From assembly GCF_011297335.1 (NCBI RefSeq), contig NZ_JAAOTJ010000002.1:186001-250000 (forward strand): DNA of 64,000 nt, given 5' to 3'. The translations under genes were made by a program, and so were the position numbers. The notes under the pieces were generated by a model. The model made no database searches. It worked only from the letters and a program-made list of their open reading frames with translations, and was not told where the DNA came from. Positions 5,503 through 17,120 of this stretch are shown here, piece by piece (position 1 is the first letter of the stretch; every line of letters begins with the position of its first letter). The stretch comes from Catellatospora methionotrophica. GTDB taxonomy: Bacteria > Actinomycetota > Actinomycetes > Mycobacteriales > Micromonosporaceae.

Positions 5503-5952
5503 TTGCCCGCCCCAGCTCCCCACGGTCCGACCCCCGATCTGCTGCAGCTGCTGACCCAGGCGGAGCGGCTGCTGCAGCGGCGGCTGTCGGCGATCCTGCG
5601 CGCCGAGCAGTGTTCGCCCGAGGCGTGGCGGGTGCTGACGCTGCTGGCCGCCGAGGGCGGACGCCCGATGACCGAGGTCGCCGACGGGGCGTTCCTGCCG
5701 CCCGGCACCCTGACCAAGGTCGTCGACCAGCTCGTCGAGCACAGCCTGGTGTACCGGCGGGTCGATCCACTGGACCGCCGGCGCGTCCGCGCCTACCTCA
5801 GCCCACGCGGCCGCCAGCTGCACGATCGCGTCGCCGAGCGGGTGCGCGCGAGCATCGGAGAGCTGGCCATGCCCGTGGCCGAGCGCGATCAGCTCGGAGC
5901 GTTGCTGGGCGCGCTGACCGGCGCGCTGTCACGCCACCCTGCCGCCGCCTGA
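5503..5952 (+). CDS. MarR-family transcriptional regulator
   Basis: A 149-residue winged-helix protein. It has an N-terminal dimerisation helix (DLLQLLTQAERLLQRRL), the recognition region EAWRVLTLLAAEGGRPM-TEVADGAFLPPGTLTKVVDQL, then the beta-wing signature VDPLDRRRVRAYLSPRG that is typical of MarR proteins. The TTG start is supported by a strong GAGGAGG about 5 bases upstream. It is divergent from the AmiC-like ligand-binding protein, which suggests joint control of a response to a small molecule. Ligand unknown. Confidence 0.85.
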   Translation: MPAPAPHGPTPDLLQLLTQAERLLQRRLSAILRAEQCSPEAWRVLTLLAAEGGRPMTEVADGAFLPPGTLTKVVDQLVEHSLVYRRVDPLDRRRVRAYLSPRGRQLHDRVAERVRASIGELAMPVAERDQLGALLGALTGALSRHPAAA

Positions 5953-6292
5953 CCGGCGCGACGGTCATTGCCAAGGGGATCGACCTGCCTTAATATGAGG
6001 CTGCGGTGGGCGGGAGCGTTTCCACGGCTCGGGCAGGTGCGAAGCGTTCCGCGATGACATCGGGCGAAGGGCCACGACGCCGGAGTCCACATCGGTCGCG
6101 GTGTGGCAGATCGCGGGAGGCGCGATGCGCCCGCGTCCCGCCACCGGACCCGTGCCGCACGCGCCGCGCCACTCCACTTCACCACTTGATGATCGACGCC
6201 CCCGAGGGGCATGCCGACCCGTCCCGGTGCCTGGGGGTACAGCCCGCGCACCGGGACGCCTCCACCCGCCCACCCCGCCGCTTCCCCTGTCG

Positions 6293-6351
6293 CAACTCTT
6301 AAAGAGTCGCGGCCTCGGCAGCCCCCTGAGGCCGCGACTCTTTAAGAGTTG
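6293..6351. terminator. Perfect 24-bp inverted repeat, likely bidirectional terminator
   Basis: Arms at 6293-6316 and 6328-6351 are exact reverse complements around an 11-base loop. Part of each arm (AACTCTTAAAGAGT) is nearly self-palindromic. The element lies just past the 3' end of the minus-strand UDG-ART gene and downstream of the plus-strand MarR gene, a terminator position for both. Confidence 0.65.
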
Positions 6352-6356
6352 TCGCA

Positions 6357-6391
6357 GGGTGGGGCGGGGTTGGGGGTGGGTGGGTGGGTGG
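6357..6391 (+). other. G-quadruplex-prone G tract
   Basis: A run of seven separate G3-G5 blocks with 1-2 base spacers, ending immediately before the stop codon of the UDG-ART gene. On the mRNA of that gene the same tract is C-rich, so any quadruplex would form on the plus DNA strand. Confidence 0.5.
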
Positions 6392-8005
6392 TCAGGAGAC
6401 CATGTGTTGGTCGGTGAGTTCGGTCAGGTGGACGGTGCACAGGCCGCCGCGGTCGGTTTGGACGTCGGTCACGGTGAGTTGGGTGCCGGGGGCGAGGATG
6501 TACTCCTCCTCGCCGGTGAAGGCGGAGAAGCTGCGGATGCCGACCGCCCGCACCGGGGTCACCTCGAAGATGGTCCGCTTGCCCCGGCTGCCGAGGAACG
6601 CCCGCGCCACGCCCAGCTTCGACGTGCAGGACGACACACCCCACCAGGTCACGGTCTGGCCCACCGGGTACGGCGCCCGCAGGTCCAGCGCCACGCCGCG
6701 CCACAGCGGCTCGGTGCGGGCGGGCAGCCGCGACACGGCCGAGAACAGCAGCCGCAGGTACGGCAGGTACGGCTCGATCCGGGTGCGGTCGGGGTGGCGC
6801 AGCGTCGCGTTGATCTGCCGGTAGAACGCCGACTCGCAGGTGTAGAGGTACAGCGCGGCGACCTCGTCGGCCGACAGCCCACCGGTCGCCTGCGCGGCGT
6901 GCTGGCGGCCGAAGTCGTGTGAGCTCTGCACGTACCAGTCGAGCCCGGACAGCAGTTTTGCGGCCGGGGCGACGGCCTCGCGGAAGTCCATCAGCGGGGT
7001 GTCGAACACGCCGGTGATCGCGGGCAGGGCCAAGCCCTCGTCCTTGACGCTGGCGAGGCGCTCCAGGTAGAGCTTGTGCAGTTCCATCGTGGAGGCGATG
7101 AACGCGCCCATCCGGTCGGCCGTGCCCGGCTGGCCGTCAGACCCCGCGTCCGTGTTCCAGCCCTTGGCGGGCAGCCAGTCGATCTCGTCGGCCCCGAGCG
7201 TGCGCAGCGCCTCGTTGACCGCGCCGAAGTGGTCGCCGTCGCAGAAGATGTCGCCCTGCGCGGCGGGGTTGGGGTGGTCGATGTGGCGGACCTCGACGCC
7301 GGGATACTTCTTCTGCAGGCGTACGACCAGGTTCTTCAGGGTGCGGGCGTGCGCGCCCCACCATGCGAACACGACGCCCTTGTCCTGCTCGTCGTCGGTC
7401 GCCTGCTTGGCGCGCAGGATCTCCTCGACGAGCTTCTCGACGACCGGCCGCCAGAACGCGGTGTGCTGGTCGACGCCCATGGCCCCGTCGGCGCTGGCGG
7501 TCAGCGAGGCGTTCAGCAGCAGTACGCCCTGGGTCAGCATCGCCTGGAACCACTCCGGCGGCTGCACGGTGTCGTGCTCGCGCAGCAGCTTGCGGATGTC
7601 GGCGATCGGGGTCTTCTTCGGGATGCCGTGCTTCCACATCGCCGCGGCCTTGATGATGCAGCGGATGCTGATCACCTTGCCGAACTGGCTGTCGTTCCAG
7701 TCGTGGAACGTGTTGTCGAACATGGCGATGCCGGTCGCGCTCTCCGGGCGCGGGTAGGGGTTCTGCCCGAAGACGACGACCTTCCACTTCTGCGGCGGAT
7801 GCGGCTTGAGCGCCTGGAACGTCAGCTCGCGGACCGGCACGACCTGCGGCCCACGGCCGGGGCCGATGAACGTCGCCGCGGCGGGCTGCGCCTCGATGAC
7901 CGGCTTCAACAGCGGCAGCCACGGCTCGCCACCACCGTTGAACAGGTCGGCGAGGGCGAGCGGGTCGTCCTGCCCGGACGGCGGCGGCGCGGCGTTGTCA
8001 CTCAT
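6392..8005 (-). CDS. Uracil-DNA-glycosylase-like / ADP-ribosyltransferase fusion
   Basis: A 537-residue two-domain protein. Residues about 70-285 align by eye with family-1 uracil-DNA glycosylase: VVVFGQNPYP (78-85) for the Ung water-activating loop GQDPYH, TQGVLLLNASLTA (158-170, uracil-recognition Asn kept), GVVFAWWGAHA (210-220), HPNPAA (244-249) for HPSPLS, and EIDWLP. The catalytic Asp is Asn and the following His is Pro, so normal glycosylase chemistry is doubtful. Residues about 375-515 form an R-S-E ADP-ribosyltransferase domain: YTCESAFYRQINATLR, LWRGV (Arg436), WGVSSCTS, and an EEE stretch at 499-501 that would supply the E-x-E. Such enzymes transfer ADP-ribose from NAD. A macrodomain protein is encoded divergently 172 bases away. 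The target (DNA base or protein) is unknown. Confidence 0.85.
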   Translation of the reverse strand: MSDNAAPPPSGQDDPLALADLFNGGGEPWLPLLKPVIEAQPAAATFIGPGRGPQVVPVRELTFQALKPHPPQKWKVVVFGQNPYPRPESATGIAMFDNTFHDWNDSQFGKVISIRCIIKAAAMWKHGIPKKTPIADIRKLLREHDTVQPPEWFQAMLTQGVLLLNASLTASADGAMGVDQHTAFWRPVVEKLVEEILRAKQATDDEQDKGVVFAWWGAHARTLKNLVVRLQKKYPGVEVRHIDHPNPAAQGDIFCDGDHFGAVNEALRTLGADEIDWLPAKGWNTDAGSDGQPGTADRMGAFIASTMELHKLYLERLASVKDEGLALPAITGVFDTPLMDFREAVAPAAKLLSGLDWYVQSSHDFGRQHAAQATGGLSADEVAALYLYTCESAFYRQINATLRHPDRTRIEPYLPYLRLLFSAVSRLPARTEPLWRGVALDLRAPYPVGQTVTWWGVSSCTSKLGVARAFLGSRGKRTIFEVTPVRAVGIRSFSAFTGEEEYILAPGTQLTVTDVQTDRGGLCTVHLTELTDQHMVS

Positions 8006-8177
8006 GAACGTGCTCCCGGAGCGGTCGTGCTGACGGCGGACCGGCGGACGCTAACACCGCCCGACGACAACTCTCCGCGGGCAGTTCGATCTCGACTGTC
8101 CCGCTCGGATTTCGTCGGTGCGGACCGCTATCTTTCGAGCCGCTGCACCGAATCCCTAGTCGCGACCGGAGCGAATC

Positions 8178-8852
8178 ATGACTGTCAGCAACTCCAAGCC
8201 CCAGCTCAAGGTAGTGCTGAGCGACGTCAACGCGAAGGTGGTGCAGGCGTGGCAGTCGGCGTTCGCCGACACCCCCGAGGTCGAGATCTCCCGTGGCTCG
8301 ATCATCGACCGGCACGTCGACGCGTGGGTCAGCCCGACGAACGCGCACGGCGCGATGAACGGCGGCGTCGACGCGGTCATCAAGCGGCACCTCGGCGCGG
8401 GCATCGAGCTGCGGGTCCAGCGCGCGATCCGGGACGGGTTCGGCGGCGCGCTGCCGATCGGCAGCGCGGTGTGCGTGCCGTCCGGCGCGGCCAACCCCAA
8501 GTTCCTGATCTCGACGCCGACGATGCACCACTCGGCGGAGAACGTACGTGAGACGCTCAACGTGGCACTGGCCTGCGCGGCCGCATTCCAGGCCGTACAC
8601 CTGCAGAACGAGCGCCAGCCCGGCAGCATCACGTCGATCGCGCTGGTCGGCATGGGCGCGGCCACCGGCAAGGTGCCGCCGCAGGTGTGCGCGAACCTGA
8701 TGTGGGCCGGTTACACCCTGTTCCAGGACCACTCGTTCGGCGACTACGACGAGCTGCGCGCGACGGTCTGCGGCCAGCTCGGCGACATCGACAGCCGTCC
8801 GGTGCAGCGGGTGCGGATCACGCCCCCGGCGCGGCCCGCCGCCCGCCGCTGA
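8178..8852 (+). CDS. Macrodomain (ADP-ribose-binding) protein
   Basis: A 224-residue protein. A macrodomain is visible from about residue 33: ISRGSIIDRHVDAWVSPTNAHGAMNGGVDAVIKR, where PTN-N10-GVD is the ribose/diphosphate-binding segment. GMGAATGKVP (158-167) would be the second phosphate loop. Macrodomains bind ADP-ribose, and several hydrolyse it from proteins or DNA (for example DarG). Lying head-to-head with a predicted ADP-ribosyltransferase, it is a good candidate eraser or antitoxin. The ATG has GGAGCG upstream. The C-terminal 15 residues are Arg/Pro-rich. Whether it is catalytic cannot be judged from sequence alone. Confidence 0.85.
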   Translation: MTVSNSKPQLKVVLSDVNAKVVQAWQSAFADTPEVEISRGSIIDRHVDAWVSPTNAHGAMNGGVDAVIKRHLGAGIELRVQRAIRDGFGGALPIGSAVCVPSGAANPKFLISTPTMHHSAENVRETLNVALACAAAFQAVHLQNERQPGSITSIALVGMGAATGKVPPQVCANLMWAGYTLFQDHSFGDYDELRATVCGQLGDIDSRPVQRVRITPPARPAARR

Positions 8853-11993: not shown

Positions 11994-13193
11994 TCACCGG
12001 CTGGTCGCGGGGTCGGTCGGGGTCGCGGAGGCGGGCGGGTCGAACACCGCCAGCCGGGGGTCGGCGGCCAGGGCCGTCACCTGCTCGCCCAGCGGCGTGT
12101 ACTGGGTGCTGGCCGGTAGCGCCGCCCGGACGTCGAGGGTGTTCGTGATGGTCACCAGCACCATGCTGTGCCCGGTGTAGACGGCGACCGACCACCAGTC
12201 CGCGTCGGCGCCCAGCCGGTGTCCGGCGGCTTGGGCCTCGGGGGTGTCGTGTACGCCGTACTGCTCGATGACCAGGCCGTCCTCGGTGACCGTGGACAGC
12301 CGGCAGATGGCCAGACGGGCGCAGTGCCGCTGGTCGGGGACCGCGACGGTGGGCGCGGCCGAGATGGTCACGGTGCCCTGCCCGCTGGCGGTGGCGACCC
12401 GTACGCTCACCGTCAGCGCGGCGGGCCCGATCGCCGGGTCGAGCAGCGCCGCCAGCGGCCGCTCGTCGCCGCGCCCGTCGAGTCCCAGGTCGATCCGCTC
12501 CAGCCCGGCCGGGTTCACCTTGCTGCGGAAGTACGCGCCCACCTCGCAGCTGAGCCGTTCCCGCCGCACCTGCTCGGGCATCACGGTCGCGCCGCGCAGC
12601 GGCAGGTCGCCGGTCAGCGCGGTGAGCCGGTCCATACCGGCGTCATCGGCGGGGCCGGGCGACGGCGTACCGGTCGGTGACAGCACGCTCGGGGACGGCG
12701 GCGCGCTCGTCGACGGGAGCCCGGCCATGCAGTCCTCGGCCTCGGGCACGGGTGTGCCGCCGGGGACCGGGCGCAGCAGCATCAGGGCGGCACCGGCCGC
12801 GACGACGCCGATCACCGTGACGGCGGCGGTGACGGCGCGGACCACCCGGCGGCGGGCCCGTCCGGCTGCCAGCAGTTCGTCGGAGTGGAACGGCACCGGA
12901 GGCGCGAGCACGTCGGACCCGTCCCCGGCGTCCTGCGGGCCGGTGCGGGCGCCGAGGAGGCCGAGCAGGGCGCGTTCGGCGTACACCTCGGGCGGGTCCT
13001 GGTGGGGGGAGTTGCCGCGCCGGTAGACGGCCAGCAGCACCCGGCGGGTGAGCCGGTCGGCGGTGTCCCAGTCGCCGCAGCGCACGTACGCCAGGCGACG
13101 CAGCCGTCCGGCGTAGACGGTGACGAAGTCGGTGTAGTCGGCCTCCCAATCGCGCACTCCGCCAGTGAACACCTTCGATCGTGATCGCGTCAT
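11994..13193 (-). CDS. Sigma-factor-like N-terminus with single membrane helix
   Basis: A 399-residue protein whose first 110 residues resemble ECF sigma region 2 of the SigE-like type (TDFVTVYAGRLRRLAYVRCG, DWDTADRLTRRVLLAVYRR) but lack an obvious region 4. A transmembrane helix (AVTVIGVVAAGAALMLL, about residues 120-140) is followed by a Pro/Ser/Thr linker and an outer domain of about 220 residues with four cysteines. Its start overlaps the ureD stop by 4 bases, so it is probably translated at the end of the urease operon. This class of sigma-like membrane proteins is common in Micromonosporaceae. Function unknown. Confidence 0.7.
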   Translation of the reverse strand: MTRSRSKVFTGGVRDWEADYTDFVTVYAGRLRRLAYVRCGDWDTADRLTRRVLLAVYRRGNSPHQDPPEVYAERALLGLLGARTGPQDAGDGSDVLAPPVPFHSDELLAAGRARRRVVRAVTAAVTVIGVVAAGAALMLLRPVPGGTPVPEAEDCMAGLPSTSAPPSPSVLSPTGTPSPGPADDAGMDRLTALTGDLPLRGATVMPEQVRRERLSCEVGAYFRSKVNPAGLERIDLGLDGRGDERPLAALLDPAIGPAALTVSVRVATASGQGTVTISAAPTVAVPDQRHCARLAICRLSTVTEDGLVIEQYGVHDTPEAQAAGHRLGADADWWSVAVYTGHSMVLVTITNTLDVRAALPASTQYTPLGEQVTALAADPRLAVFDPPASATPTDPATSR

Positions 13194-13930
13194 CCCCCGT
13201 ACGGAGAGCGCTCTCCGGTGCTGAGGTAGCCGCGCAGCACGTGCGCGTCCGGGGCGGTGGCGCTGACCAGTGTCGCCGCGCCGGTCAGCGGCATCCGCAC
13301 CGCAGTCGCGCCGAGCACGGCCGGTGGCGCGGGCGGCGCGGCGGCGTCGACGGTCAGCAGCGAACCGGTCGCGCGGGCCCCGCCGAGCACCGCCGGGCCG
13401 TCCCAGCCCGGCGTGCCCGGACCGACCGTCAGCGACTGCCGCAGCAGGGCGGCACCGTCGTAGTCGACCGACGTGCTCACCGTGGCGTCGCCCGGCTGCT
13501 CGGCGTGGCGGCCGCAGATCAGTTCCTCCCGCCACAGCAGGCGCGCCCCGGCGGCCAGCTCCACGGTGGACGACGCCAGGTGGCGGCAGCCCGCCGCGGC
13601 GACCAGCTGCTCGGGCAGCCAGCGCAGCTCACCGCCCGCCGCGACGGTCGCGGTGACCGTCGTGCGGGACGGCGACCCGTCCCGGCCGGGCAGGGCGATC
13701 GAGGCGGCGACGGAGCGTACGCACAGCACCGCTCCCTCGCCGACCTCGATCTCGATGCGCAGGTCGTCGCCGCCGAGCGGCCCGGCGGCGCTGCCGATCA
13801 GGTGCACCGTCGCCGCCGCCGAGCCGTCCGGGGTGTGCCGCAGTTGCAGGGGCGGTTCGCCGCGCAGGCGCGCCAGCCGGGTGCCGCCGCGCCCGTCGGC
13901 CTCGGCGACGATCCTGGCCAGCGCCCGCAT
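13190..13930 (-). CDS. ureD: Urease accessory protein UreD
   Basis: A 246-residue UreD/UreH-type protein, the scaffold that holds apo-urease while UreF and UreG deliver nickel. Recognisable blocks are RLRGEPPLQLRHTPDG, IGSAAGPLGGDDLRIEIEVGEGA, the typical EQLVAAAGCRH and LLWREELICGRHAE. Length is a little below the family average of about 270, as usual for actinobacteria. The start overlaps the ureG stop by one base (TGATG) and the stop overlaps the following sigma-like gene, so it lies deep within the operon. Confidence 0.88.
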   Translation of the reverse strand: MRALARIVAEADGRGGTRLARLRGEPPLQLRHTPDGSAAATVHLIGSAAGPLGGDDLRIEIEVGEGAVLCVRSVAASIALPGRDGSPSRTTVTATVAAGGELRWLPEQLVAAAGCRHLASSTVELAAGARLLWREELICGRHAEQPGDATVSTSVDYDGAALLRQSLTVGPGTPGWDGPAVLGGARATGSLLTVDAAAPPAPPAVLGATAVRMPLTGAATLVSATAPDAHVLRGYLSTGERSPYGG

Positions 13931-14700
13931 CAGCGCATCCCGGCGGTCGCGGGCCCGCGACCGAGCTCGTCGGCGTGGTCGTGACCGTGCGCCTCGGCGT
14001 CGCCTCGGCGGTGTGCGACGAGGTGGCGTACCCAGTCGGCGACCTGACTCGCGTGCGGGTCCTTCGCGATCGACTGGAAGACCGTGGGCAACGTGCCCCG
14101 GCGGGCGCGGGCGTCGCGGTCCATCACGGCCAGGTCCGCCCCGACCAGCGGGGCCAGGTCCGTCTTGTTGATGACCAGCAGGTCGGCCGTGGTGACGCCG
14201 GGGCCGCCCTTGCGGGGCACCTTGTCGCCACCGGCCACGTCGACCACGAAGATCTGCTGGTCGACCAGGCCCTTGCTGAACGTGGCGGTGAGGTTGTCGC
14301 CGCCGCTCTCGACCAGCACCAGATCCAGCGGGCCGAGCGTGTCCTCCAGCTCCTCGACGGCGTCGAGGTTGGCGGAGATGTCGTCACGGATGGCGGTGTG
14401 CGGGCAGCAGCCGGTCTCCACGGCGCGGATACGGGACGGGTCGAGCACCCCGGCCCGTTTGAGGAAGTCGGCGTCCTCGGTGGTGTAGATGTCGTTGGTC
14501 ACCACCGCCAGCCGCAGCTCCCCGGCCAGCGCCCGGCACAGGGCGGCGACCAGCGCGGTCTTGCCGGAGCCGACCGGCCCGCCGATGCCGATGCGCACCG
14601 CCCGGTCCAGGCGGGGCAGCGGCGGGTGCGGATCGACGCCCGGCTCCGGGTGGGTGTGGGGCACCGATTCGTCGTGGTCGTAGGCGTGGTCAGCTCGCAA
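13930..14700 (-). CDS. ureG: Urease accessory GTPase UreG
   Basis: A 256-residue nickel-chaperone GTPase. The P-loop is [12 protein letters not shown]. Switch-like blocks are [13 protein letters not shown] and [13 protein letters not shown] (the Cys-Pro-His nickel site). The G4 motif is NKTDL. The N-terminus is His-rich (DHAYDHD, PHTHPEP), as in actinobacterial UreG. A TTG start at 14700 is chosen because GGGAGG lies 8 bases upstream inside ureF. GTG at 14664 is an alternative. It hydrolyses GTP to insert nickel into urease with UreD and UreF. There is also a His-rich tail. Confidence 0.92.
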
Positions 14701-15397
14701 AGAGACGCACCTCCCAGGTGGCGTGCAGTTCGGCGGAGATGTCGGCCAGCGGCGCCGCGTGGGCCGGCAACTCCTGCGGGGACTTGTGCGCGACCGCCGC
14801 GGCGGCTGCCGCGATCTCGTCACATGCGCCGGCCATCCTGGCCAGCAGATTCTGCACCTGGTACGGGTCCAGCCCGAGCAGCCGCACCGCCGCGCTGGCC
14901 GGTCCGGTGAGCACCCCGTACACGGCGAGCTGGGCGGCCTCCTCCGTGGACAGTCCCGCCGCGGCCGCCGTCATGCCCAGCGCCAGCGGCTGGTGTGGGC
15001 CGTCGGGGTGCTTGGGCAGGTGCCCGTACAGCTCGCTCGGCCAGGTGAGCCGCCCCGCTCGCAGCAGCGCCCGGCCCTGCCGCCGCGACGCCAGCCGCAG
15101 CGCCGGTGACACCGTCCGCGCCTCCAGCTCCCGGTCCAGGGAGAGGAAGGGCACCTTCACATCGGATTCCGCGAAGGAAGGTGCCCTTCCCATCCGTGTG
15201 GCGGACAGGTGCGTGGCGGCGGTGAAGGCGGCGGTGACGGGGGCGGCGTAGGAGAGTCGGCCGTGCAGGAACTGCTCCAGGCCGGCCAGGTCGGTGACCC
15301 GGCCGGCGACGACGGCCGCTTCGAGGCCGCTGGAGTGGGCGTGGCCGCCGGACGGGAAGCGCCCGTCGGCCAGCAGCAGGTATGCGGTGCGGTGCAT
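14690..15397 (-). CDS. ureF: Urease accessory protein UreF with inserted palindrome
   Basis: A 235-residue UreF that regulates UreG GTPase activity in urease maturation. Family blocks include [18 protein letters not shown] at the N-terminus, [15 protein letters not shown], and [13 protein letters not shown] at the C-terminus. The segment [16 protein letters not shown] (about residues 69-84) has no counterpart that I recall in UreF and is encoded by a 46-base palindromic element (15145-15190) lying in frame. Otherwise the protein is complete. It overlaps ureG by 11 bases and follows ureC by 16. Confidence 0.88.
15145..15190. repeat. Palindromic element inside ureF
   Basis: Arms at 15145-15158 and 15177-15190 are exact 14-base reverse complements (GGAAGGGCACCTTC and its complement) with an 18-base loop. 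The AAGGGCACCTTC-type arm resembles intergenic palindromes that I recall as common in Micromonosporaceae genomes. Here the element is in a coding sequence without breaking the frame. Confidence 0.7.
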
Positions 15398-15413
15398 CAG
15401 AACAGACCGTGCC

Positions 15414-17120
15414 TCAGAAGAGGAAGTACCGCTGGGCCATGGGCAGGACCGTCGGCGGGTCCGGTTCGACGACCGCGCCGTCGATGCGGACCGTGAACGT
15501 GTCCGCGTCGACCTCGATGCGCGGCATCGCGCTGTTGTGCGGCAGGTCGGCCTTGCCACGCGAGCGCACGTCCGCGACGGGCACCAGTGCCCGCTTGACG
15601 TCCAGCTCCAGACCCGCGTCCAGGGCCGCCGGGGCGACGAAGGCGAGCGAGGTCTTGGCGGGCACGACGCCGTACGCGCCGAACATGGGGCGGGGCAGCA
15701 TCGGCTGCGGAGTGGGGATGGACGCGTTCGCGTCGCCCATCTGCGCGTACGCGATCATGCCGCCCTTCATCACCAGGTGCGGCCGCACCCCGAAGAACGC
15801 CGGGTCCCAGATCACCAGGTCGGCGAGCTTGCCGGGCTCGACCGAGCCGATCTGTTCCTCCAGCCCGTTGGCCATCGCCGCGCAGATGGTGTACTTCGCG
15901 ACGTACCGCTTGGCCCGGTGGTTGTCGGCTGACGAGTCGCCGGGCAGCGAGCCGACCCGGTCCTTCATCACGTGCGCGGTCTGCCAGGTGCGCAGCACCA
16001 CCTCGCCGATGCGGCCCATCGCCTGCGAGTCCGAGCCGATGATCGAGATCGCGCCGAGGTCGTGCAGCAGGTCCTCGGCGGCCATCGTGGACGGCCGGAT
16101 GCGGCTCTCCGCGAACGCCAGGTCCTCGGGCACGGCCGCGTTCAGGTGGTGGCACACCATCAGCATGTCCAGGTGCTCGGCCAGGGTGTTGCGGGTGTAC
16201 GGCCGGGTCGGGTTCGTCGACGACGGCAGGATGTTGGGCAGGCTCGCCACCGTGATGATGTCGGGCGCGTGCCCGCCCCCGGCCCCTTCCGTGTGGTACG
16301 AGTGGATCGCCCGCCCGTTGATCGCGGCCAGGGTGTCCTGCACGAACCCGGCCTCGTTCAGGGTGTCGGTGTGGATCGACACCTGCACCCCGGACGCGTC
16401 GGCGACGCGCAGGCACGCGTCGATCGCCGCCGGGGTGGTGCCCCAGTCCTCGTGCAGCTTGAACCCGCCCGCCCCAGCGCGCAGCTGCTCCCACATGGCC
16501 TCCTCGGAGACCGTGTTGCCCTTGCCGAGCAGCAGCACGTTGACCGGGAACGTGTCCAGCGCCTCGAACATGCGGGCCAGGTGCCAGGCGTTCGCGGTGA
16601 CCGTGGTCGCCTTGGTGCCCTCGGCCGGGCCGGTGCCGCCCCCGACCAGCGTGGTCACGCCGCCCGCGAGGGCCTCGTGCACGAGCTGCGGACAGATGAA
16701 GTGCACGTGGGTGTCCACGGCCCCGGCGGTCACGATCTTGCCGTTGCCCGCGACGACCTCGGTCGCCGGTCCGATGACCAGATCCGGGTGTACGCCCGGC
16801 ATGGTGTCGGGATTGCCGGCGCGTCCGATCGCGACGATCCGCCCGTCGCGGATGCCGATGTCGGCCTTGACGATGCCCCAGTGGTCCAGGATCACCGCCC
16901 CGGTGATGACCGTGTCGACCGCGCCCTGCGCGCGGGTGGCCCGCGACTGGCCCATCGACTCGCGGATCACCTTGCCGCCGCCGAAGACGGCCTCGTCGCC
17001 GCCCGCGCAGCGGTCCTCCTCGACCTCGATGAGCAGGTTCGTGTCGGCGAGCCGGATGCGGTCACCGGTGGTGGGGCCGTAGAGCGCGGCGTAGCGCTCG
17101 CGGCTGACCAGGATCGTCAC
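15414..17120 (-). CDS. ureC: Urease alpha subunit
   Basis: A 568-residue catalytic subunit, of standard length. Nickel ligands are HVH (138,140), the carbamylated lysine in [10 protein letters not shown] (Lys221), His250 and His276, and Asp364 in GSDSQAMGR. The flap is MVCHHLN (320-326), with the mobile Cys323 and catalytic His324. It hydrolyses urea to ammonia and carbamate in the cytoplasm. The subunits are separate genes (ureA, ureB, ureC), as in most actinobacteria. A 148-base gap with a hairpin separates it from ureB, unlike the other tight junctions of the operon. Confidence 0.97.

Follow-up and report, generated by a model that had tools for sequence, protein, structure and literature searches.

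What is gained by joining a domain resembling uracil-DNA glycosylase (UDG) to an ADP-ribosyltransferase (ART), and by encoding the product next to a macrodomain protein? The question is raised by a gene pair of the actinomycete Catellatospora methionotrophica (genome G000 below), at positions 6392-8852 of the 64,000-nucleotide stretch of contig NZ_JAAOTJ010000002.1 that we analysed, hereafter the window. The fusion gene (6392..8005, minus strand), assigned from its open reading frame and from Pfam, NCBIfam and phmmer searches against the PDB, starts with ATG and encodes 537 residues. The macrodomain gene (8178..8852, plus strand) also starts with ATG and encodes 224 residues; the two genes lie head-to-head, with 172 bp between their start codons. 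Our preferred answer, which we judge evenly balanced between right and wrong, is a portable DNA-damage-inducible ADP-ribosylation module, in which a damage-induced, lesion-directed and probably arginine-type ART works with a macrodomain partner.

The N-terminal part of the fusion (about residues 15-283; 7157..7963, minus strand) was recognised as UDG-like by a profile search and by phmmer against the PDB, with matches to the UNG structure 3tr7 (E=3.4e-14) and to 5x3g (E=1.1e-12), which we take to be BdiUNG. NCBIfam ung models match the fusion from E=3.5e-21, every one of them under its curated cut-off, and the Pfam UDG model PF03167 gives no match at E<=1. The silence of PF03167, together with the sub-cut-off matches, points to a divergent family-1-like UDG; on these searches, the N-terminal part is homologous to the UDG fold.

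Its motif A is altered. Residues 80-86 (7748..7768, minus strand) read GQNPYPR, so that Asn82 occupies the place of the catalytic Asp of UNG; the segment GQNPYPRPESA aligns with GQDPYPRPESA of 5x3g. Motifs A and B of family-1 UNG are defined in PMC10359453 (here and below, papers are cited by PMC number for the portions of their text that were available). The family-1 GQDPY with its catalytic Asp is replaced by GQNPY in 81/81 fusion sequences, and G80, Q81, N82, P83, Y84, N165 and H244 are invariant. The peptide patterns PEWFQAM and PVRELTFQ match 240 stretches of named genomes, 210 of which encode relatives; the 81 sequences are the window's own and the best 80 of these 210, and residue counts are therefore biased to close relatives. 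The mean frequency of the majority residue is 0.90 in the UDG part and 0.87 in the ART part. The UDG part is thus conserved at least as much as the ART, which argues that it is not decaying.

The C-terminal part (about residues 298-530; 6416..7114, minus strand) is an ART of the R-S-ExE type. PF01129, the NAD:arginine ADP-ribosyltransferase family, matches residues 367-531 above cut-off (E=2.1e-10), and the Arg, the S-x-x-T/S and the ExE are supplied by R436, S458, T461, E499 and E501, present in 81/81 sequences. In the AlphaFold model of the fusion, built on a shallow alignment of 17 rows, the mean predicted local distance difference test score (pLDDT) is 56.5, and ten-residue blocks of the ART half lie at 51-89. 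Foldseek places this half with solved ARTs: Vis (E=3.9e-9), 6drh (E=6.0e-8), which we take to be the ART toxin/immunity pair of Tre1, as well as ExoS, HopU1, ART2.2 and C3-type ARTs. The arginine specificity of Vis is stated in its PDB name; ExoS, HopU1, ART2.2 and 6drh are presumably arginine-specific too, and the C3-type enzymes presumably differ in their acceptor. ExE ARTs of the R-S-E fold usually modify arginine, and the ExE of the fusion hints that arginine is probably its acceptor as well.

The partner protein matches Pfam PF01661 (Macro) at E=2e-10. A catalytic Asn and, ten residues on, a catalytic Asp within a GGVD loop mark macrodomains of the MacroD type. A profile search aligns N55 and D65 of the partner with the corresponding Asn and Asp of 5fud, which is of this type, and N55 and D65 are invariant in 80/80 macrodomain sequences, which places the protein as MacroD-like. 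Its AlphaFold model (pLDDT 67.6, from a shallow alignment of 16 rows) is nearest to 1njr, yeast Poa1p (E=1.9e-4), the sole fold match below 0.001; MACROD2 appears at E=1.3 and above with this weak model. The protein also matches PHROG 2613, of unknown function, at 3e-37, much more strongly than Pfam Macro, and tblastn finds relatives in Sinorhizobium phages and at tail-fibre genes of Salmonella phages; these phage relatives are 28-32% identical.

The original prediction had thus read the locus correctly in its architecture: a UDG-like/ART fusion in one protein, the change of GQDPY to GQNPY, the R-S-E type of the ART and the macrodomain gene 172 bases away are all borne out, and the modelled ART half resembles solved ARTs. 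Its UDG assignment stands as homology; the model is too poor to confirm the fold, as described below.

The pairing on which the prediction hinged, and whose lack of conservation would have refuted it, is conserved across genomes. Among 200 Micromonosporaceae genomes, its own included, the fusion occurs in 30, at 75-100% identity (29 full length and one partial, G033). The macrodomain gene (at least 64% identity) is found in 31, including all 30 with the fusion, which it adjoins in each; the overlap has P ~8e-35 (hypergeometric, kinship ignored). Orthologues at 75-92% identity adjoin the same partner in many genera, so that the pair is more than chance. In a class-wide scan, the fusion was present in 7 of 296 genomes, again including its own. 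The 36 loci of the two scans (30 and 6) comprise 31 head-to-head pairs, one locus lacking the N-terminal parts of both proteins (L030 of G033, probably by assembly or deletion), one tandem pair (L064) and three loci (L062, L065 and L066) that encode a single in-frame macro-UDG-ART protein of 781-813 residues.

The 80 named-genome loci share genomes with the family scan (for example L067/G109) and are not independent of it. The macrodomain gene is present in 79 of them; the 80th (L130) has just 21 bases before the match and is uninformative on this point. In geometry, 68 are head-to-head, a Nocardia locus (L117) is divergent with overlapping start assignments, six are tandem and four are in-frame fusions, giving 69/80 head-to-head or divergent. 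The macrodomain comes first in both tandem and fused forms. Carriers belong to Catellatospora, Dactylosporangium, Micromonospora, Actinoplanes, Virgisporangium, Nonomuraea, Microtetraspora, Streptosporangium, Streptomyces, Kitasatospora and Nocardia, and across the Actinomycetes the pair forms a conserved unit.

In a midpoint-rooted tree of the 81 fusion proteins, a Streptomyces group of nine (support 97/74) unites the four in-frame fusions, which cluster together (100/99), with five tandem copies; the sixth tandem copy, L144, lies outside. This placement suggests that the head-to-head arrangement came first, the tandem one next and the fusion last.

A macrodomain gene without the fusion was also met. 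In G024 (L147, 4265-6458), the one family genome of the 31 that lacks the fusion, an orthologue at 64% identity follows a family-1 ung at a distance of about 770 bp, on the same strand; this ung is canonical (GQDPY, HPSPMN), there is no UDG-ART, and no ART remnant was seen between ung and the macrodomain gene. G016, of the window's own genus, has a relic of the macrodomain N-terminus (L150, 6214-6435; 51% over 74 residues) and no fusion match in the surrounding 12.5 kb, by which it is a decayed module. Distant macrodomain relatives (33-37%) occur in G007 (L148, 5193-5903) and G026 (L149, about 5508-5993), with no UDG-ART match in the 11 kb around either.

When would such a pair be expressed? 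The intergenic region holds two sites resembling the RecA-NDp promoter, whose consensus is tTGTCRgtg-8-TAnnnT (PMC5656591). The site directed toward the fusion, TTGTCG...TAGCGT (8048..8070, minus strand), agrees at 10/12 positions and lies 42 nt before the ATG; the one toward the macrodomain gene (8112..8134, plus strand) agrees at 11/12 and lies 43 nt before it. We scanned 69 intergenic regions, those of the 68 head-to-head loci and the window, with L117, L130 and the ten tandem or fused loci excluded; the loci are related, so that their counts are not independent events. Matches of at least 10/12 in either direction are found in 63/69 regions, with 0.4 expected from Markov shuffles. Macro-ward sites of this quality occur in 61 regions, 53 of them 38-46 nt before the start codon. 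The strict pattern is present in 22/69 regions, against 5/1360 stretches of 200 bp taken at random from these loci, the module itself possibly included, and a 13-position form scores at least 11 in 60/69, against 0.16 expected. In each of the ten tandem or fused loci, a site of 12-13/13 precedes the macrodomain by 38-40 nt, and between the genes none scores higher than 8/13, which fits a single transcript. LexA/SOS control was rejected: CGAACNNNNGTTYG, GAACNNNNGTTC or GAACNNNNGTT occurs in 0/69 intergenic regions.

As a control, the exact 13-position motif was searched in Streptomyces G498, where it occurs 12 times and its reverse not once; it is found 0 times in G129. A Pfam scan of ten predicted proteins downstream of the 12 exact sites named, among others, RecA, DNA polymerase III alpha (dnaE), MgsA/RarA, RecD2 HHH and UDG (ung). 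In the last case (L183, 1501-2258), the exact site lies 54 nt before a canonical ung, which suggests that uracil excision itself may belong to the damage regulon. Two further exact sites, in L174 and L178, precede SUKH-4 immunity-type and TnpB/IS605-like genes. In a comparison of five RecA loci (the gene of G055 was not located), recA of the window's own genome, like that of two congeners, is preceded by TTGTCGGACCCAGCGCCTAGCGT (10/12), which has the -35 (TTGTCG) and -10 (TAGCGT) of the fusion-ward site and lies 6-66 nt from the recA start depending on the start codon chosen; the site upstream of recA in G064 reaches 9/12. RecA-NDp is read by PafBC, according to papers on mycobacteria including PMC5656591. 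Judged by these motifs, the module carries promoters of the RecA-NDp/PafBC type and is predicted to be induced, a point that goes beyond the original prediction.

The module travels without companions. Of 1145 genes picked mechanically from the 81 loci, those of the fusion/macrodomain cluster form the sole family present at all 81; the next most frequent neighbour family occurs at 7 loci of five genera and the following ones at 4, several loci having short flanks. A larger conserved operon or island was rejected, as no other family is present in more than 7/81 loci. In the window, urease alpha and urease accessory-like genes (13190-17120, assigned by eye) make an ordinary neighbourhood, common only to the three Catellatospora loci among the 81. 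Directly 3' of the fusion gene stop lies a terminator-like inverted repeat (6285..6359), whose 32-nt arms, 91% complementary, flank a loop of 11 nt. Close relatives of either half that stand on their own in the phylum were also rejected: the ART part alone has relatives in 2/346 genomes and the UDG part alone in 4/296, own genome included in each count, two of the latter being weak partial matches of 38-40%.

A phage origin was rejected as well, since two pattern scans of viral contigs returned no relatives and the macrodomain is only a 28-32% relative of phage macrodomains, although it matches PHROG 2613 at 3e-37. Among the phage records listed, none covers 80% of the fusion or of the macrodomain protein, and those listed for the fusion match its UDG part only, at 24-28%. 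In a plasmid collection, four records contain the whole fusion: two Streptomyces plasmids (0.33 and 1.5 Mb) and two replicons that measure 5.7 and 11.9 Mb. The three regions examined from these records all have the adjoining macrodomain, one divergent and two on the same strand; on a Streptomyces plasmid, macrodomain and UDG-ART lie within one annotated coding sequence, named 'ADP-ribosyltransferase domain-containing protein'.

We now propose how the module may work. The fusion itself, its constant partner, their conservation, the in-frame triple fusion of Streptomyces and the RecA-NDp-type promoters are read directly from the genomes. From them we infer lesion binding, the acceptor and the direction of macrodomain activity. 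DNA damage would turn the module on through PafBC or another reader of RecA-NDp. The UDG-fold domain, which retains the uracil-pocket residues Q81, Y84, N165 and H244 alongside Asn82, would then dock on uracil-like or otherwise deaminated bases, holding or slowly processing them rather than excising them as UNG does. Docking would place the ART at the damaged site, and there it would use NAD+ to ADP-ribosylate a lesion protein or itself, most likely on arginine. The macrodomain partner may remove or read the ADP-ribose and so keep the writer in check; such restraint would explain why every locus with a visible flank encodes it beside the writer, and why it leads in tandem and fused forms.

The same Asp-to-Asn change has reportedly been used in work with an inactive UNG as a uracil-DNA sensor. 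That a catalytically inactive UNG serves as such a sensor is described in PMC7505663. The module would then act like a minimal bacterial counterpart of the damage-signalling pair of PARP and macrodomain. In its most specific form, as PARP-plus-macrodomain-like signalling assembled from unrelated parts, namely an Asn-UDG sensor of uracil or deaminated bases, an arginine-type mono-ART and a macrodomain reader/eraser, the idea is possible rather than probable.

Several observations weigh against the lesion-directed module. On the DNA side, UNG has a Phe that stacks on the base and a Leu that intercalates; by alignment, these are Met95 and Ala248 in the fusion, and the family-1 motif B, HPSPLS, has given way to H-x-NPAA, so that DNA binding may differ from that of UNG. 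A diverged copy (L027, 1 of 17 rows of alignment A1) reads GQEPYP and has His at the position of N165. Asn is normal in motif A of Mug/TDG enzymes, GINPG (PMC10359453), and the change from Asp to Asn need not abolish excision. The UDG half of the AlphaFold model is unreliable, with pLDDT under 50 across long stretches, too poor to confirm the fold, and the uracil pocket was therefore assessed from sequence alone.

The chemistry of the two partners is a second difficulty. Arginine-specific macrodomains of the DUF4804/MavL kind carry the signatures [VIL]xGxGxGx[FWY] and WDxx[SA]xPGN[DE][FY][FWY], and three other macrodomain classes come without evidence of acting on arginine ADP-ribose (PMC10951314). 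Either signature is present in 0/80 of our macrodomain sequences. An ExE-type writer and a MacroD-like eraser would thus make no simple match: either the acceptor is other than arginine, or the specificity of the macrodomain is new, or the macrodomain works through binding.

The promoters have their own exceptions. Nine of the 69 regions score below 11/13, including both from Virgisporangium and three of five from Dactylosporangium, and the exact motif occurs 0 times in the window's own genome, whose two sites reach 10/12 and 11/12. Exact sites of G498 also precede transporter, SUKH-4, SWIM and TnpB-like proteins and one protein without a hit, so that a damage promoter is no proof of a role in repair. 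In an initial search of Streptomyces venezuelae, moreover, the PafBC motif was not conserved (PMC9380542), which argues against a simple transfer from mycobacteria.

Other functions can be read into the same genes. The original prediction offered repair, immunity or toxin-antitoxin roles; the promoters favour a damage response, and immunity finds no positive evidence in PADLOC or in the ordinary neighbours. As a toxin-antitoxin or abortive infection system, the UDG domain would recognise foreign or modified DNA (that of phages or plasmids, with uracil or modified bases), the ART would poison either the cell or its invader, and the antitoxin would be the macrodomain. This we consider somewhat unlikely. 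The macrodomain exists without the fusion (G024, at 64%, and the G016 relic), the fusion was never seen without the macrodomain (30/30, and 79/80 loci with the 80th cut), the macrodomain leads in tandem and fused forms, and the pair stays together in differing flanks and on two Streptomyces plasmids; a toxin-antitoxin-like dependence is compatible with this one-way co-occurrence. Yet no PADLOC family matches the fusion at E<=1 and DarG matches the macrodomain at just E=0.012, two pattern scans of viral contigs gave no relatives, and no listed phage record covers 80% of either protein. The link of RecA-NDp to recA, dnaE and ung points elsewhere, as does the strong conservation of both domains, in a sample biased to close relatives.

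Asn82 might instead allow slow base excision, as in an active Mug/TDG-like glycosylase, after which the ART would modify DNA (an abasic site or base) or a protein-DNA complex, and the macrodomain would remove the ADP-ribose from nucleic acid. Here the usual Asn of Mug/TDG motif A (PMC10359453) and the retained Tyr84, Asn165 and His244 speak in favour, as do the wide substrate range of the solved relative BdiUng (PMC8307549) and the action of S. coelicolor macrodomains on ADP-ribosylated nucleic acids (PMC9411070). We nevertheless find the proposal decidedly unlikely: the stacking Phe and the intercalating Leu are replaced, the ART is of the ExE type, DarT is absent from its family hits, and its best fold matches are mostly protein-modifying ARTs. 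Finally, the UDG fold might be a mere scaffold or protein-binding part, a decoy or a dock for a partner, in an ADP-ribosylation switch that serves general stress and has no relation to DNA lesions. The loss of motif B and of the intercalating residue would suit it, and by sequence the chemistry of macrodomain and ART is not DNA-specific. The invariance of Q81, Y84, N165 and H244 in 81 sequences, the conservation of the UDG part (0.90 vs 0.87 for the ART) and the damage-linked class of the promoters make this very improbable.

How does the lesion-directed module compare with known systems? Eukaryotic PARP1 with PARG/macrodomain hydrolases is a writer recruited to lesions, paired with a macrodomain reader/eraser. 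The present pair would resemble it, if our preferred reading is right, in exactly this layout; it differs in the class of its ART and in its DNA-binding fold, and poly-ADP-ribosylation is not implied. DarT/DarG, named as the closest concept in the original prediction, holds as a functional comparison: an ART and a macrodomain protein are encoded in adjacent genes with a link to DNA. As a family assignment it fails. The ART is here PF01129 with R-S-ExE, a UDG is fused to it, the genes are mostly divergent and the promoter is of the DNA-damage type. DarT is absent among the Pfam and PADLOC hits of the fusion at E<=1, and the macrodomain is MacroD-like (N55/D65), its match to PADLOC DarG being E=0.012. 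Membership of DarTG was rejected, the pair having neither a DarT-type ART nor a DarG-type macrodomain.

From family-1 UNG and BdiUNG the fusion keeps the UDG fold by homology, the pocket residues Q, Y, N and H, and GQ[D/N]PYPRPESA as in 5x3g; it departs from them in its Asn for the catalytic Asp, Met for Phe, altered motif B and attached ART. Vis, 6drh (presumably Tre1), HopU1 and mammalian ART2.2 share the fold of the ART half and its R-S-ExE residues, but these solved enzymes are toxins, effectors or surface enzymes, unlike a UDG-fused ART paired with a macrodomain. The mycobacterial Arr is likewise an endogenous, DNA-damage-induced mono-ADP-ribosyltransferase; neither a UDG domain nor a macrodomain partner is mentioned for it in the available text of PMC3138739. 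SCO6735, the UV-inducible ALC1-like protein of S. coelicolor, is also an actinobacterial macrodomain with a RecA-NDp promoter (PMC5087735, PMC9411070). Its structure 5E3B, however, is absent among the listed PDB matches of our macrodomain; the gene upstream of SCO6735 codes for an amino-acid permease, and the endogenous transferase is called unknown (PMC9411070).

The combination itself seems new, as the original prediction supposed: a literature search, with most subscription papers outside its reach, found no description of a UDG-ART fusion, nor is one described in the available portions of PMC9503650, PMC11833690, PMC13036486, PMC9411070, PMC5087735 and PMC7159879. For S. coelicolor, a census in PMC9411070 gives three transferases that have been characterised, besides three macrodomain hydrolases; in the portions available, it ascribes a UDG domain to none of them.

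Altogether, the module looks like an undescribed bacterial damage-response system of soil actinobacteria. ADP-ribosylation in Streptomyces varies with development, and in 2016 its major protein ADP-ribosyltransferases still awaited discovery (PMC5087735). The module offers a concrete ART candidate in the species where it occurs, with a predicted trigger in DNA damage, a partner in the macrodomain and a putative sensor in the Asn-UDG. If this is confirmed, bacteria would have built lesion-directed ADP-ribosylation from components that have no kinship with PARP, and the naturally altered UDG domain could serve as a probe of uracil-DNA. The macrodomain might then form a new class acting on arginine-linked ADP-ribose, and the fusion would be one of the undiscovered protein ADP-ribosyltransferases of streptomycetes and their relatives.

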